A DNA stretch of 37,202 bases from NCBI GenBank assembly GCA_002840675.1, contig PHBR01000009.1, positions 1 through 37,202 on the forward strand. Reading direction: 5' to 3'. How positions within the stretch are numbered: position 1 is the first letter of the stretch; each line of letters opens with the position of its first letter. This DNA comes from Chloroflexi bacterium HGW-Chloroflexi-9 (GTDB taxonomy: Bacteria; Chloroflexota; Dehalococcoidia; UBA2979). This document shows, one piece after another, positions 30,458-37,202 of the stretch. Below the pieces are notes generated by a model. It had not been told where the DNA came from. It saw nothing but the letters and a program-made list of their open reading frames with translations, and made no database searches. Both the position numbers and the translations under genes were made by a program.

Positions 30458-31393
30458 GTGGCCACCCCCGACGATCGCTGGTTCGAGGTCGTCGCACGCT
30501 GCGATCCCGCCGACACGGAAGCCGCCGCCGATGTCCTGCGCGAGGCGGGCGCGGTCGGCGTCTCGATCGAGCCGGCGCTCCTGATCTCCGACTCCGCCGA
30601 CTTCTCTTACGAGGAACTCACCGACCGCCCCTGGGTGGTGCGCGCCACCTTCCCGGCCGCGCTGTCCCAGCCCGCCCGCCGCGCGCTCCGTCGTCGCCTC
30701 GCGCAGGTCGCGGTCAGCGGGCCGCTCGCGCGTCTGCGGATGCGCGAGGTGGAGCCGGTGGACTGGGCGGAGGAGTGGAAGCAGTTCTACCGCATCCAGC
30801 ACATCGGCCAGCGCCTCGTCGTCCGTCCCTCGTGGGAGCCGTACGAGGCACAGCCGCACGAGGTGATCATCGACCTCGATCCCGGCGCGGCGTTCGGCAC
30901 CGGCGAGCACGAGACCACGCGTCTCTGCCTGCTCGCGATGGAGGGCGTGATCGCGCCGGGCATGGACGTGCTGGACGTGGGCGCGGGCTCCGGCATCCTC
31001 GCGATCGGCGCGGCGAAACTCGGCGCGCGCAGCGTGCGTGCCGTGGACATCGACGCGGCGACCGTGGCGGTGGCCGTGGAGAACGCGGAGCGCAACGGCG
31101 TGGACGGGATGGTCGAGTTCGGCGCGGGCAGCGTCGGCGACATCTGGCCGTGGCCGGCCGCCCCCGCGGAGGGCTCCGCGGACCTGGTGCTCGCGAACAT
31201 CTCCTCGGTCGTGCTCGGGCGGCTCATGCCGCTGCTCGTCGCCGCGCTCCGCCCCGGCGGCACGCTGGTCGCGAGCGGCTTCCTGCGCCGCGACGCGCAC
31301 GAGGTGCGCGCCGCCGCGGAACAGGCGGGCCTCGTGGTGCGACAGGACTTCGAGGAAGGCGACTGGGGCGCCCTCGTGGCTACTCGGGCCTGA
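30458..31393 (+). CDS. prmA: Ribosomal protein L11 methyltransferase
   Basis: DPGAAFGTGEHETTRLCL and VLDVGAGSGILAIGAAKLGA motifs. GTG start. Confidence 0.94.
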   Translation: MATPDDRWFEVVARCDPADTEAAADVLREAGAVGVSIEPALLISDSADFSYEELTDRPWVVRATFPAALSQPARRALRRRLAQVAVSGPLARLRMREVEPVDWAEEWKQFYRIQHIGQRLVVRPSWEPYEAQPHEVIIDLDPGAAFGTGEHETTRLCLLAMEGVIAPGMDVLDVGAGSGILAIGAAKLGARSVRAVDIDAATVAVAVENAERNGVDGMVEFGAGSVGDIWPWPAAPAEGSADLVLANISSVVLGRLMPLLVAALRPGGTLVASGFLRRDAHEVRAAAEQAGLVVRQDFEEGDWGALVATRA

Positions 31394-32408
31394 ACGGCCG
31401 CTCCGTCCACGTCACCGGGTCCACGTTCACGCCGTAGATCGTCATCTCCCAGTGGAGATGCGGCCCGGTCGACAGGCCGGTGGATCCCATCAGCGCGATC
31501 ACCTCGCCCGCCTCCACCCGCGCGCCGGCCTCGGTCGTGATCTCCAGCAGGTGGTGGTAGCCGGTCACGACGCCGGCCCCGTGGTCCACGAGCACGGTGT
31601 TGCCACGGATCGGCATGGGCGCTGCCCAGATCACCCGGCCCGGCGCGGCGGAGACGACCGGCGTCCCCTCCGCGTTCGCGATGTCGAGGCCGCTGTGCGC
31701 GCTGCCGATCGGGCCGCCATTGATCGAGCGGGCCTGGCCGAACTCCGTCGTCACGATGCCCTCGGTCGGTCGGATGAACAGGCCGTCCCAGCTGGCGCGG
31801 CCATCGAAGGCGTTGAACTGCTCGAACGCGCGTATGCGCGCCTCGGTCGCCAGCGCCTCCGGCGTCAGCACCGAGCCTTCTTCCTCGGTCAGTTCGAGGT
31901 AGTCGACGGGTCGGTCGACCTCCACCACCGTAAACGGCACCTCGGTGGTCTCCAGCGTCGCGCCGGCGGTGTCGCGCGTTGTGACGACGGCGACCTGCGG
32001 CCCGAGGGGCGCGACGAGGCCGGCGCCGAGCGGTGCCCAGAGCGTGTCGCCGTCACGTTCGAGGGGGTAGTGGTGCCCCAGGAAGACCACGGATCCGCTG
32101 GCCGCCCCGGGACGCCGGACGGCCAGCAGCGATGTCTCGCCTCGTCCTACCTCCGGCGGGGCGAATGTGATCGTGATTGGCACCGGCGTGGAGGCAACCA
32201 CTGCCGTCGCGACGGCGGACGCCTCGGCGGTTGGGATCGCGGTGGCGAGGCCTACCGTGGCGGCGCCGGGGTCGGGGGCGCCGTCACGGAGAAGCCCGGC
32301 GCCCCCCGCGATCAGGATCACGACGAGCACGGCACCGGCCGCCCGCGCAGGCAGGCGGCGGTACCACGGCCGGAGCGGTGGCGGTGGTTCGATCAGCGCT
32401 CCGCGCAC
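31380..32408 (-). CDS. M23-family metallopeptidase, membrane-anchored
   Basis: N-terminal TM, then HSGLDIANAEGTPVVSAAPGRVIWA and GPHLHWEMT. 3' end overlaps the prmA 3' end. Confidence 0.92.
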   Translation of the reverse strand: MRGALIEPPPPLRPWYRRLPARAAGAVLVVILIAGGAGLLRDGAPDPGAATVGLATAIPTAEASAVATAVVASTPVPITITFAPPEVGRGETSLLAVRRPGAASGSVVFLGHHYPLERDGDTLWAPLGAGLVAPLGPQVAVVTTRDTAGATLETTEVPFTVVEVDRPVDYLELTEEEGSVLTPEALATEARIRAFEQFNAFDGRASWDGLFIRPTEGIVTTEFGQARSINGGPIGSAHSGLDIANAEGTPVVSAAPGRVIWAAPMPIRGNTVLVDHGAGVVTGYHHLLEITTEAGARVEAGEVIALMGSTGLSTGPHLHWEMTIYGVNVDPVTWTERPFRPE

Positions 32409-32623
32409 GTCTACTCCGGTCGATCACAGACTTCACGCTTCGGTGGTGGGTTTGACGAGATCGTAACGTGAGGCGGCGGGAGAGGCCTTTCTCGCATCTG
32501 TATACTCAAACTGAATGCGGGTCGCGGCGTCCCGTTCCCCACCACACTGGCCAGCGATCGCAACCCTGAGGCCCGGTGCGCGCCCGACAGGCGTTCCGGG
32601 GGATCGTTCCACCCGGAGGTGTC

Positions 32624-33580
32624 ATGGAAGATCCCAGGATCGTCGCGGATCGGGTGCTCGATAACGTCGAGCGCGTGATCATCGGCAAGTCGGCGGAAGC
32701 GCGTCTCGCGCTCGTGACCCTGCTCTGCCGTGGCCATCTCCTCATCGAGGATGTGCCCGGGGTGGGGAAGACCATGCTGGCGCGGGCGCTGGCCGTCTCT
32801 ACGGGGTGCCGCTTCGCGCGCATCCAGTTCACGCCGGACCTGCTCCCGGCGGACGTCACCGGTGTCTCCATCTACCAGCAGGCCACCGGTGAGTTCAGCT
32901 TCCGCCCCGGCCCGATCATGGCGGAGATCGTCCTCGCGGACGAGGTCAACCGAGCCACGCCCAAGACCCAGTCCGCGCTCCTCGAGGCGATGGAGGAGCA
33001 CCAGGTCACGGTGGACGGCGTCACCCACCTGCTCCCGGCGCCGCACATGGTGATGGCGACACAGAACCCGATTGAGTACGAAGGCACGTTCCCGCTGCCG
33101 GAGGCGCAGTTGGACCGCTTCCTCATGCGCATCCGCCTCGGCTACCCGTCCCCCACGGACGAAGTGCTGATCATGGACGCGCAGCAGTCCCACCACCCGA
33201 TCGAGGCGCTGGCGCAGGTGGTGACCCCGCGCGAGGTGGTGGAGATGCAGGACGCGGTGGGCCGCATCTACGTCGACCCGCTGATCAAGCAGTACATCGT
33301 GACGCTGGTGAACGCGACGCGTGACCACCCCGCGGCCTACCTGGGCGCGTCGCCGCGCGGCTCGCTCGCGCTCATGCGGGCGACGCAGGCGCACGCCATG
33401 CTGGACGGTCGCGACTTCGTGACGCCGGACGACGTGAAGGCGCTGGCGCAGGCCACCCTCGGCCACCGCGTGATCGTCAGCCCGAGCGCCCGCGTGCGCG
33501 AGGTGGACAGCGCGCAGATCGTGGACGAGGCGCTGGAGCGCGTGGCAGTACCGGGCGTCCGCGCCCGAGGCGGCGTGTAG
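32624..33580 (+). CDS. MoxR-family AAA+ ATPase
   Basis: [18 protein letters not shown] Walker [50 protein letters not shown]. Confidence 0.95.
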
Positions 33581-33588
33581 GCGCGCCC

Positions 33589-34863
33589 GTGCCCTCGCTC
33601 GGCGGACCGATGGAAACGGTGCGCCGCCGTCAGAACGTGACGGTGGTGGTGGCGGTCGCCGTGATCTGCGTGGTCGTCGGTTTTGCGACCGGCTTCTGGC
33701 TCCTCTTCCGCCTCGCCTACGTCGTCGCGGTCGCCGTGCCGCTCGCCTACTTCTGGACGAAGTCGATGGCCGAGGGCCTCGAGGTGGAGGTGCAGCGCAC
33801 CTCGCAGCGAGTGACGCAGGGGCAGCCGCTGGAAGGGCGCATCGTCGTCCGCTCGCGCTCGCCGCTCCCGAAGATATGGCTGGAGATCGAAGACCCCTCC
33901 TCGATCCCGGGGCACGAGACGCGCCGCGTGCTCACGCTTGGCTGGAAGGGCATCGCCGCGTGGGGGTACCGCACGCGCACGCGCGTCCGCGGCGTCTACA
34001 CGCTGGGGCCGGTGCGCGTGACCGCGGGCGACCCCTTCGGCTTCTTCCGCGTCACCCGCACCTTCGGCGAGCCGACGACGATCCTCGTGTACCCGAACGC
34101 CCCCGACCTGCCGAACTTCTACATCCCGCCGGCGAACCTGCCGGGCGAGGGCCGCCTTCGTCGCCGCACGCACAACATCACGCCGAACGTCTCCGGCCTG
34201 CGCGAGTACGCCCCGGGTGATTCCTACAACCGCATTCACTGGCCGACGACCGCCCGCCTCGGCAAGCCGATGGTGAAGCAGTTCGAGCTCGATCCGGCAT
34301 CCGACATCTGGCTGGTGCTGGACCTGGACGCGCGCCACCATGTGGGCACCGGCGAGGACTCCACGGAGGAGTGGGCCGTCGCCGTCTGCGCCTCGATCGC
34401 ACGCTACTTCATCAACCAGCACCGCAGCGTCGGCATGATCACGTTCGGCGACGACCTGCGCGTCGATGAGCCGGACCGTGGCCAGAACCACTACACCCGC
34501 CTGCTGGAGTCGCTCGCCCTCGCGCGGTCCTCCGGCGACGCGCCGCTCTCCAACCTGCTGCTGGAGGAGTCCCGCCGCTTCGGACGGCACACGACCGTCG
34601 TGGTGGTGACGCCGTCCACCGACCCGGCGTGGGCGTTCACCCTCGTGGCCCTTGGCGCACGAGGCGTGAAGGTCGCGGCCGTGCTGCTGGAGGCGGACAC
34701 GTTCGGCCCGGCCCCCAGCCCGATCGAGGCGTACGGCACGCTCGCGGCGGGCGGCGTCTACACCTACACCGTGAAGTACCAGGACGACCTGAGCCGCGTG
34801 CTCTCGATCGGCGCCGACCCCGAGCGCGACGAGGCCGCGCGCGTCACGCGGGCGGAGGGCTAG
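33589..34863 (+). CDS. DUF58 domain-containing membrane protein
   Basis: LREYAPGDSYNRIHWPTTARLGKPMVKQFE motif and N-terminal TM segments. Directly after MoxR. Confidence 0.9.
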   Translation: MPSLGGPMETVRRRQNVTVVVAVAVICVVVGFATGFWLLFRLAYVVAVAVPLAYFWTKSMAEGLEVEVQRTSQRVTQGQPLEGRIVVRSRSPLPKIWLEIEDPSSIPGHETRRVLTLGWKGIAAWGYRTRTRVRGVYTLGPVRVTAGDPFGFFRVTRTFGEPTTILVYPNAPDLPNFYIPPANLPGEGRLRRRTHNITPNVSGLREYAPGDSYNRIHWPTTARLGKPMVKQFELDPASDIWLVLDLDARHHVGTGEDSTEEWAVAVCASIARYFINQHRSVGMITFGDDLRVDEPDRGQNHYTRLLESLALARSSGDAPLSNLLLEESRRFGRHTTVVVVTPSTDPAWAFTLVALGARGVKVAAVLLEADTFGPAPSPIEAYGTLAAGGVYTYTVKYQDDLSRVLSIGADPERDEAARVTRAEG

Positions 34864-34866
34864 CCG

Positions 34867-37202
34867 ATGGCCTCCGCACCCACCTTCGACGATGTCTTCA
34901 CCTCCCCGCACGCCACCCCTCGCCCATCGGAGACGCCGCAGCGCGGCTGGTGGTGGTCGTGGGAGGACTGGCTGACGCTCTGCCTGATCGCGCTGGCGCA
35001 GTTGCCGGTGGTGGGTTCGCTGCAGTCCTCTGACTGGGTGAACGAGATGCCCTCGCTGCTGGGCCCCGCCTCCGTCGGTCTCATGGCGGCGTGGCTGCTG
35101 GGCAAGTCGCGGCTGCCGGGCGCCATTGCGTGGGCCGTGGCCGGCGTCACCGGCGTCGCCAGCACGGTGCTGCTGGTGATGCAGACGATGGTGCTCGCAG
35201 ACCCGCTCGCCGGGGACGGCCCGCGGGCCTACTGGTCGGAGTTCTGGCTGCGGCTCCGCGACTGGGGCGGCGCGCTCCTCGACGGCGGCATCTCCACCGA
35301 CCCGCTGCCGTTCGTGGTGCTAATGGTGGGTCTGGTGTTCACCGTGGCGTTCGTCTCCACGTGGGCGGCGATCCGCTGGCTGAACCCGTGGGTCGCGCTG
35401 GTGCCGGGCGGATTCGTGCTGCTCACGAACATCTCCTACCTGCCGGGCCAGCCGTCGCTCTCGTTCATCATGTTCCTGCTCGCCGCGGTACTGCTCGTCT
35501 CTCGCGTGCAGTACCTGCGCGCGCGGGAGCGCTGGCACGAGAGCGGCTTCGAGCCCCCCGACTTCATGTCCGTGGAGGTGCTGACCGCGGGCGCCGTGGT
35601 CGCCGTGGTGCTGGTGATCGCGGCGTGGACGATCCCGACCGCCAACCACCTGGGCCCGCTCGCGGACGCCTGGGGCCGCCTCGTCGCGCCCGTCTCCAGC
35701 CGCATCGACCAGGTCGGCCAGCTGTTCATCGGCGTCGGGTCGAAGAAGGAGATCCCCGTCCACTCGCTGGGCGCGACGCTGCCGATCCAGGGCAAGATCA
35801 CGCTCGACACCGTGCCGCTGCTGGAGGTCACTACGCCCCGCGCCACAAACCTGCGCGGCGCCGTGTATGACGAGTACACCGGCGCCGGCTGGAAGGTCTC
35901 CACCGCCGCGCCGGTCGGCCTCGCCGAGACCACGATCGAGGCGGCCGAACTCGGTTCGCCGGAGACGCGCGCGCTGGTGCGTGAGGCGGTGAAGGTCACC
36001 GTGGCCGTGACCGCGGAGGGCGTCCCAGACCAGCGCCTGCTGGCCGCCGGCGATCCGCTGGCGGCGGACGTTCCCGCGCAGGTGCTCATCGACACGAACG
36101 GCGGCGCGGTGGCACTGGTGCCGGCGGACCGCACCCCCCCCGGTGGCACCTACACCACCGTCGGCGCGATCTCGGTCGCGTCCGTCTCCACCTTGCAGGC
36201 GTCCGGGGTGGTCTACCCGGCGGCGCTCTTCGATCGCTACACGCAGTTGCCGCCCAACCTGCCTCCCGAAGTCTTCGAACTGGCCGCGACCGTGACCGCC
36301 AGCGCGCAGACCCCGTACGAGGCGGCACGAATGATCGAGGCGTACCTGCGCCAGAACTACCGCTACGCGCTGGACGTGAGCGCGCCGCCGCCACGCACGG
36401 ACGCGGTCGCGGACTTCCTCTTCACGCAGCGCGCGGGGTACTTCGACCAGTTCTCGACCGCGATGACGGTCATGCTGCGCAGCATCGGCGTGCCCGCGCG
36501 CCTCGCCGCCGGCTTCACGCTCGACCCCGGGTCGTACGACGCAGCGAGCAAGACATACATCCTGACCGAGGCGGACTCGTGGTCCTGGCCGGAGGTCTAC
36601 TTCCCCGGCCTCGGGTGGGTGGAGTTCAACCCGACCCCCAGCCGGGACCTGGTGTCGCGGCCGGGCGACGACAGCGCCGCGCTCGCGGAACGCGATGCCG
36701 CGCTCACGCCCGACTTCGGTGACCTCCCTATCGACGACCTGCTGCTTTCTGACGCAGAGATCCCCGGCTTCGGCCCGATCGGTGACTTCGATGCCGCGGC
36801 ATTCGAGGGGGAGAGCGGCGCGGTTCATCTCGTTGCGCGCGTGCTCGGGTCGGTGATCGTCGCCGCGACCGGCGCGTTCATCCTGTTCCTGGCGCTGCGC
36901 TTCGCCTGGGAGCGGTCGTTCGGCGGACTCATCGGCGCAGAGCGGCGCTGGGCGAAGGTACAGCGGCTCGCCGGGTGGGCCGGTATCGCGCCGCCCGACG
37001 ACCGCACGCCCTCCGAGGCGGCACGGTTCCTCGAGGACTACATCGCCGAGCCGGCCGCCCTCGGTGCGCTCGCCCGTGCGTTCACGGTGGCGCGGTACGG
37101 GCACGCGCCGGACGAGCCGGCGGAGGCCGCCCGGGCGCTGGACGAGGACTACCGGCGGGTGAGCCGCCCGCTCTGGCGGCTGACGGTGGGCCGCGTGTTC
37201 CG
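34867..37202 (+). CDS. TgpA-like transglutaminase-fold membrane protein (3' truncated), catalytic triad not conserved
   Basis: ATG 34867, frame open to the window end, so absent from the ORF track. Multiple N-terminal TMs. Transglutaminase-like DAVADFLFTQRAGYFDQFSTAMTVMLRSIGVPARLAAGF...EADSWSWPEVYFPGLGWVEFNPTPS, then a TM and DUF4129-like tail. Confidence 0.9.
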   Translation, partial: MASAPTFDDVFTSPHATPRPSETPQRGWWWSWEDWLTLCLIALAQLPVVGSLQSSDWVNEMPSLLGPASVGLMAAWLLGKSRLPGAIAWAVAGVTGVASTVLLVMQTMVLADPLAGDGPRAYWSEFWLRLRDWGGALLDGGISTDPLPFVVLMVGLVFTVAFVSTWAAIRWLNPWVALVPGGFVLLTNISYLPGQPSLSFIMFLLAAVLLVSRVQYLRARERWHESGFEPPDFMSVEVLTAGAVVAVVLVIAAWTIPTANHLGPLADAWGRLVAPVSSRIDQVGQLFIGVGSKKEIPVHSLGATLPIQGKITLDTVPLLEVTTPRATNLRGAVYDEYTGAGWKVSTAAPVGLAETTIEAAELGSPETRALVREAVKVTVAVTAEGVPDQRLLAAGDPLAADVPAQVLIDTNGGAVALVPADRTPPGGTYTTVGAISVASVSTLQASGVVYPAALFDRYTQLPPNLPPEVFELAATVTASAQTPYEAARMIEAYLRQNYRYALDVSAPPPRTDAVADFLFTQRAGYFDQFSTAMTVMLRSIGVPARLAAGFTLDPGSYDAASKTYILTEADSWSWPEVYFPGLGWVEFNPTPSRDLVSRPGDDSAALAERDAALTPDFGDLPIDDLLLSDAEIPGFGPIGDFDAAAFEGESGAVHLVARVLGSVIVAATGAFILFLALRFAWERSFGGLIGAERRWAKVQRLAGWAGIAPPDDRTPSEAARFLEDYIAEPAALGALARAFTVARYGHAPDEPAEAARALDEDYRRVSRPLWRLTVGRVF

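Follow-up and report, generated by a model that had tools for sequence, protein, structure and literature searches.

A TgpA-like protein of Dehalococcoidia with Phe, Trp and Asn at the transglutaminase triad positions: a probable pseudo-enzyme of a MoxR-DUF58 operon

What can a TgpA-like membrane protein do when all three catalytic residues of its transglutaminase domain are replaced? The question is raised by the last gene of the window, i.e., the whole stretch of DNA analysed here, which is 37,202 bases long and represents an entire contig of a fragmented assembly (151 contigs, 2.50 Mb, about 82% complete). The answer preferred here, with a probability of about 0.6, is that the protein is a conserved pseudo-transglutaminase serving as a membrane receptor or scaffold in a MoxR-DUF58 complex. 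The final three genes of the contig lie on the plus strand in the order MoxR, DUF58, and TgpA, and they are listed below together with the parts of the third.

32576 to 33580, plus strand: MoxR AAA+ ATPase, first gene of the operon (Pfam AAA_3, 213.3 bits)
33589 to 34863, plus strand: DUF58 protein (VWA-like), second gene of the operon (Pfam DUF58, 79.2 bits)
34867 to 37202 (ORF 34867 to 37200), plus strand: TgpA-like membrane protein with degenerate transglutaminase domain, 778 aa, no stop codon, 3' end open at the contig end
34960 to 35727, plus strand: N-terminal membrane part, residues 32-287, TgpA_N-like, nine long helices in the AlphaFold2 model (pLDDT mostly 70-97)
35776 to 36174, plus strand: beta-rich extracytoplasmic domain, residues 304-436 (AlphaFold2 model)
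36280 to 36633, plus strand: transglutaminase core (Transglut_core), residues 472-589 (Pfam, 80.8 bits, cut-off 23)
36949 to 37143, plus strand: C-terminal DUF4129, residues 695-759 (Pfam, 27.7 bits, cut-off 24.8)

The TgpA ORF runs open to the contig end, and comparison with relatives 803-833 aa long puts the missing C-terminal stretch at about 25-45 residues. In MoxR, both Walker motifs, A (GVGKT) and B (ADEVNR), are intact when read by eye, and the metal-site motif of the DUF58 protein is degenerate (VLDLDARHH at 34315). An M23 peptidase gene (31380-32408, minus strand) is divergent from MoxR, and the same layout is found in most loci of the family. The layout of the third protein is that of a normal TgpA, with a helix bundle, a beta-domain and transglutaminase fold, a further membrane helix, and a DUF4129 tail. 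Transglut_core, the N-terminal membrane bundle, and the C-terminal DUF4129 that mark the TgpA family were all recognized, from Pfam matches and model helices; the Pfam TgpA_N match at residues 63-430 reached 26.9 bits, slightly short of the cut-off of 30. The AlphaFold2 model was built from 42 relatives and has a mean pLDDT of 85 overall and above 90 across nearly all of the transglutaminase domain. When the full model was compared with the PDB in Foldseek, TgpA of Pseudomonas aeruginosa (6g4h/6g49) was the best match, with E 1e-13 to 2e-13 and a target-normalised TM-score of 0.69. The transglutaminase domain modelled alone has a mean pLDDT of 93 and again TgpA 6g4h/6g49 as its top match, followed by weaker matches to animal transglutaminases and to the dead transglutaminase protein 4.2. 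Searching the PDB by sequence returned the periplasmic domain of Pseudomonas TgpA (6g49) with E 6.5e-13. The fold around the three sites is thus predicted to be intact with high confidence, in agreement with the original prediction made from the sequence of the window.

That prediction had also read the Cys-His-Asp triad as replaced by Phe-Trp-Asn. The three codons are exactly those it gave, and alignment to 6g49 places Phe opposite Cys, Trp opposite His, and Asn opposite Asp.

36442 to 36444, plus strand: TTC, F526 at the position of the Cys nucleophile (codon read and alignment to 6g49)
36580 to 36582, plus strand: TGG, W572 at the position of the catalytic His (codon read and alignment to 6g49)
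36628 to 36630, plus strand: AAC, N588 at the position of the catalytic Asp/Glu (codon read and alignment to 6g49)

The norm with which these residues had been compared, C-H-D with an FDPTP block, is right for Pseudomonas TgpA and not for Chloroflexota, where the usual acid is Glu (FEPTP); the change is therefore more aptly written CHE to FWN. With Phe, Trp, and Asn at the three sites, the Cys-His-(Asp/Glu/Asn/Gln) triad of an active enzyme is absent, and among the triads accepted for papain-like and transglutaminase folds (PMC10318531) Asn alone is tolerable, Phe and Trp are not. A displaced Cys nearby was searched for, but residues 300-600 are free of cysteine in all 34 family proteins. Neither does a second intact transglutaminase domain follow past the edge of the window, as the full-length relatives stop about 25-45 residues beyond the cut and are then followed by convergent Bat-type genes. 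Because Phe, Trp, and Asn occupy the sites and no cysteine is near, thiol chemistry is not possible, and judging from sequence the transglutaminase activity has very probably been lost.

An error of assembly or sequencing in a metagenome-assembled genome could produce such substitutions, and the assembly is indeed fragmented and incomplete, but 32 distinct sequences share these residues, as do separately assembled records such as L085-L088, and an intact C-H-D is read in two further transglutaminase-like proteins of this genome; this explanation can be regarded as already refuted. Another protein of this genome, L002 (G000:C106:4572-4862), lacks the TgpA membrane part and reads FSAWFEAY, with Ser at the expected His, while its tandem neighbour L004 reads an intact C-H-D.

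In the family of the window, the TgpA gene was found without internal stops in 33 of 35 related genomes. Thirty-two of the 34 distinct sequences are FWN and two are SWN, i.e., the positions of W572 and N588 are invariant (34/34) and that of F526 is Phe in 32 and Ser in two, at a median site entropy of 1.42 bits in the transglutaminase domain. In this alignment, the conservation of the three substituted residues is far beyond chance. The dN/dS ratio of the domain (Nei-Gojobori, six pairs) is 0.08-0.39, which indicates purifying selection. When the membrane part is 30-40% identical, the domain has a mean identity of 0.45-0.49 in His-less groups versus 0.545 in CHE/CHD proteins, so the constraint on the domain appears eased but not gone. 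A decaying gene, whose activity is gone and whose domain drifts before deletion, would fit this somewhat lower identity, and it would fit G016 and G030, two family members with genomes of 1.1-1.2 Mb that keep MurG and have no TgpA match. It is largely refuted, and now very improbable, by the frames without internal stops in 33 of 35 relatives, the low dN/dS, the invariant Trp and Asn, and the spread of the His-less form over more than ten families.

A stronger competitor, and the main one, is that function resides in the membrane helices and the DUF4129 tail, with the transglutaminase domain acting only as a passive structural spacer. Invariant residues of the family are indeed scattered over the membrane part as well as the transglutaminase domain. 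In most identity bins, however, conservation is higher in the domain than in the membrane part or the beta-domain, His-less groups included, and a spacer would have no need of conserved residues at the substituted positions. The spacer is therefore considered unlikely, although clearly less so than decay. Two records of these collections should be mentioned separately. Family member G010 (L034 and L053) has a second TgpA, of the SHE type, which groups with family f14 and lies on a contig of 6974 bases, so horizontal transfer or contamination comes into question. The TgpA of L089 (CAMDBZ010000062.1), a record titled Thermoflexus hugenholtzii JAD2, matches that of G019 (L020) in triad motifs, ORF length, and score, and the title looks wrong.

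The substitution is not confined to one family. Among 200 distinct TgpA proteins collected mostly from the same class (Dehalococcoidia, judging from named records), plus other Chloroflexota, the triads are CHE in 64, SHE in 34, FWN in 32, FYN in 28, CHD in nine, FFN in seven, FFS in six, and YYD in six, with rarer others. In the main tree, which was built without the three triad columns, a single clade (SH 100) holds 89 of the 90 His-less proteins, all of Dehalococcoidia and of the types FWN, FYN, FFN, FFS, YYD, and others; the lone His-less protein outside is ALN. The main loss of His thus seems to have happened once, with the ALN outlier as a second change, and two His changes in total were also obtained when the tree was built on just the N-terminal part, which leaves out the transglutaminase domain, and when a mixture-model tree of 73 sequences was used. 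Cys was lost several times (four to seven changes, depending on the tree), and the residue at its site varies across the His-less clade (F, S, Y, P, A). The clade carries its own mark in the loop before the His strand:

36517 to 36522, plus strand: two extra residues (T551 and L552 as aligned), present in 85 of 89 members of the His-less clade and in three of 73 CHE/CHD proteins

Among 61 further Chloroflexota loci from outside Dehalococcoidia, CHE was read in 56, SHE in two, and AHE in three, with no loss of His in this sample. Scattered Cys losses in these other classes (L295, L301, L314, L317, and L319; SHE or AHE) keep His and Glu. A 2175 aa open frame with a CHE transglutaminase domain, L054 (G040:C60), is distant from the other TgpA proteins on the tree. 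Trp and Asn are invariant in the family, and elsewhere in the clade FYN, FFN, and other forms are found, with CHE as the norm in the phylum. What the original prediction had missed is that, on these trees, the triad loss is a class-level feature with one main and ancient loss of His, and also that it is accompanied by a Bat-type VWA operon. The His-less form persists across more than ten Dehalococcoidia families.

Three proteins of families f23 and f46 are AHN, with His kept, Ala in place of Cys, and Asn in place of the acid. Two independent origins of the dead state, one in AHN and one in the His-less clade, were considered and not upheld, as a tree in which AHN is constrained together with the His-less clade scores a higher likelihood than the unconstrained one (p-AU 0.77). 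AHN may accordingly be an intermediate, and an order in which Cys and the acid were lost first and His later is compatible with this result.

The clade-wide comparison also bears on the idea that the protein is still an enzyme by means of other residues, such as D527, tyrosines 450, 458, and 484, E491, or D512, or by means of a nucleophile of a partner. Several polar residues are indeed highly conserved in the domain (D512, R538, R545, D527, E491, and W574), and some papain-like enzymes, e.g., GP42, have moved the catalytic His (PMC10318531). Most of these residues, however, are similarly conserved in Cys-His members, so the fold explains them; besides, no Cys is available, no domain His reaches 90% conservation within the family, and the residue at the Cys site is variable across the clade. 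Different chemistry is thus hardly more probable than decay of the gene.

Why the chemistry was lost has an apparent answer in the cell wall. Many Dehalococcoidia lack peptidoglycan, so the chemistry could be expected to have gone along with it. This explanation was rejected, because MurG is present in 76 of 79 genomes with His-less TgpA. The group mostly without MurG is the SHE group, and when Cys-less TgpA proteins that keep His are pooled, MurG is present in four and absent in 23. The pattern fits the published history, in which peptidoglycan synthesis was lost once, in the later-branching orders 10-25 of the class, and was retained in order Tepidiformales (GTDB UBA2991) (PMC10284905). The large SHE group of Dehalococcoidia that mostly lacks MurG (L040, L048, L093, L189, L195, L210-L211, L219-L221, L226, L228-L230, L239-L244, and others) may use a serine nucleophile or may represent another type of dead enzyme, in bacteria that lack peptidoglycan. 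Family f33 is FYN and includes record UBA2991; by the taxonomy of PMC10284905 it belongs to the order of the cultured genus Tepidiforma, so that the FYN form is to be expected in cultured Tepidiforma.

Linkage of TgpA to MoxR and DUF58, which the original prediction had assumed for a membrane complex, was confirmed in the window and in every testable His-less locus, i.e., one with enough upstream sequence: 70 of 70 have MoxR and DUF58 immediately before TgpA (19 of the family, 47 of the class, and four unclassified). The genes after TgpA in the family are on the opposite strand, tail-to-tail, and Bat-type in 16 of 18 loci, and encode a VWA-TPR protein (DVSRSM), a BatA-like VWA protein (DVSSSM), and a DUF4381-like protein. 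A BatA-like VWA and a VWA-TPR protein near the MoxR operon, as in Bat/MoxR-VWA systems, are accordingly found in the relatives, and the contig of the window ends before that point. In genome G002 of the same genus, a TgpA end (91% identical) and a BatA-like gene are on one contig (C252). By coordinate comparison, the tail-to-tail order also occurs in families f20, f50, f66, and f68 and in the AHN families f23 and f46, and the Bat genes do not lie beside TgpA in families f33, f16, and f25. A BatA-like protein (E below 1e-30) is encoded in 59 of 79 His-less and three of three AHN genomes versus none of 14 CHE/CHD and none of 22 SHE genomes; a looser search of 16 CHE/CHD/SHE genomes gave much weaker VWA matches only (one of 93 bits, others under 46). 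The Fisher p of 3e-16 counts related genomes as independent and overstates the association, because the lineages share ancestry and independent events are few. A loss of the DUF58 metal site together with the TgpA triad was also considered and rejected, as DUF58 proteins have a degenerate motif whether their TgpA partner is CHE, SHE, or His-less. The DUF58 partners of TgpA in this group lack the DxSxS metal-site motif whatever the triad, and the Bat-type VWA proteins (downstream of L246) have DVSRSM and DVSSSM.

The original claim of a pseudo-enzyme is well supported when these results are taken together, namely the clade-wide change, purifying selection, an extracytoplasmic part without Cys, a fold predicted with high confidence, and no second domain. 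That the protein has a function dependent on the fold is supported by its persistence across families, selection on the domain, and the constant operon context. The more specific proposal that this function is that of a receptor or scaffold in the MoxR-DUF58 complex is somewhat better than an even bet. An ancestral Dehalococcoidia lineage would have lost the triad, and the positions would then have settled on lineage-specific residues, usually Phe, an aromatic residue, and Asn or Ser. The transglutaminase fold would have become a non-catalytic binding surface outside the cell, which, within a MoxR-DUF58-TgpA membrane complex, may hold or sense a peptide or protein of the envelope, and TgpA would pass this envelope signal on to the MoxR ATPase. 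Bat-type VWA and VWA-TPR proteins probably take part in the complex as well in most of these lineages. An envelope ligand is plausible because peptidoglycan synthesis is retained. A bolder and only tentative version, which we rate below the receptor or scaffold role itself, is that the peptidoglycan-making clade of Dehalococcoidia turned TgpA stepwise, by way of an AHN-like form and then an aromatic residue in place of His, into a dedicated binding subunit, in which the former active site, lined by Phe and by Trp, Tyr, or Phe, would form a new ligand or peptide pocket controlling a MoxR-DUF58-Bat envelope machine.

The job of MoxR-DUF58-TgpA operons is poorly known, and the many relatives with a dead enzyme and a kept operon suggest that an important part of it needs no transglutaminase chemistry. 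The graded series CHE, SHE, AHN, FYN, and FWN represents natural variants that could separate the structural from the catalytic role, and the link to cultured Tepidiforma could open the question to tests in a living organism. Searches of open-access papers gave no description of a dead TgpA from Chloroflexota; inactive membrane transglutaminases as such are already known from RloB.

Among known systems, the closest is TgpA of P. aeruginosa (PA2873), the best match in the PDB by both sequence and structure (6g49, 6g4h), which shares the TgpA family, the transglutaminase fold, and the extracytoplasmic domain with the protein of the window. In PA2873 the Cys-His-Asp triad is conserved, and the protein has transglutaminase activity in vitro and is critical for viability (PMC3507681), whereas the protein of the window has Phe-Trp-Asn and no cysteine in its extracytoplasmic part. 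Inactive membrane transglutaminases are represented by RloB of the P. aeruginosa rlo operon (PMC12239564) and by HM2192, whose loss changes vesicle production (PMC12096838), and both cases indicate that proteins of this kind can play a part in envelope biology (PMC12239564, PMC12096838). RloB, however, has a retropepsin-like protease and an ATP-grasp protein as partners, whereas MoxR and DUF58 are the partners here; the two RloB-type operon genes were not found, the convergent genes of the relatives being Bat-type, and the Pfam families of inactive membrane transglutaminases gave no match up to E 10, in a search that did recover Transglut_core and DUF4129 and in which HMMER filters may discard very weak matches. 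A review (PMC10318531) lists transglutaminase and papain-like folds that are dead and have been retained as scaffolds. One of them is EPB42 (erythrocyte protein 4.2; inactive according to PMC10318531), which likewise is a dead transglutaminase fold in a membrane complex and is seen among the fold matches (8cs9, 8csw, and 7uzs). It is an animal protein of unrelated architecture and a distant match, and so a parallel case and not a functional relative. Bat (aerotolerance) and other MoxR-VWA systems resemble the locus in combining a MoxR ATPase with BatA-like VWA and VWA-TPR membrane proteins, and MoxR has been postulated to load metal into Bat MIDAS sites (PMC3557215). Unlike in those systems, the Bat genes of this family form a separate, tail-to-tail operon, and it is the MoxR operon that carries the dead TgpA.
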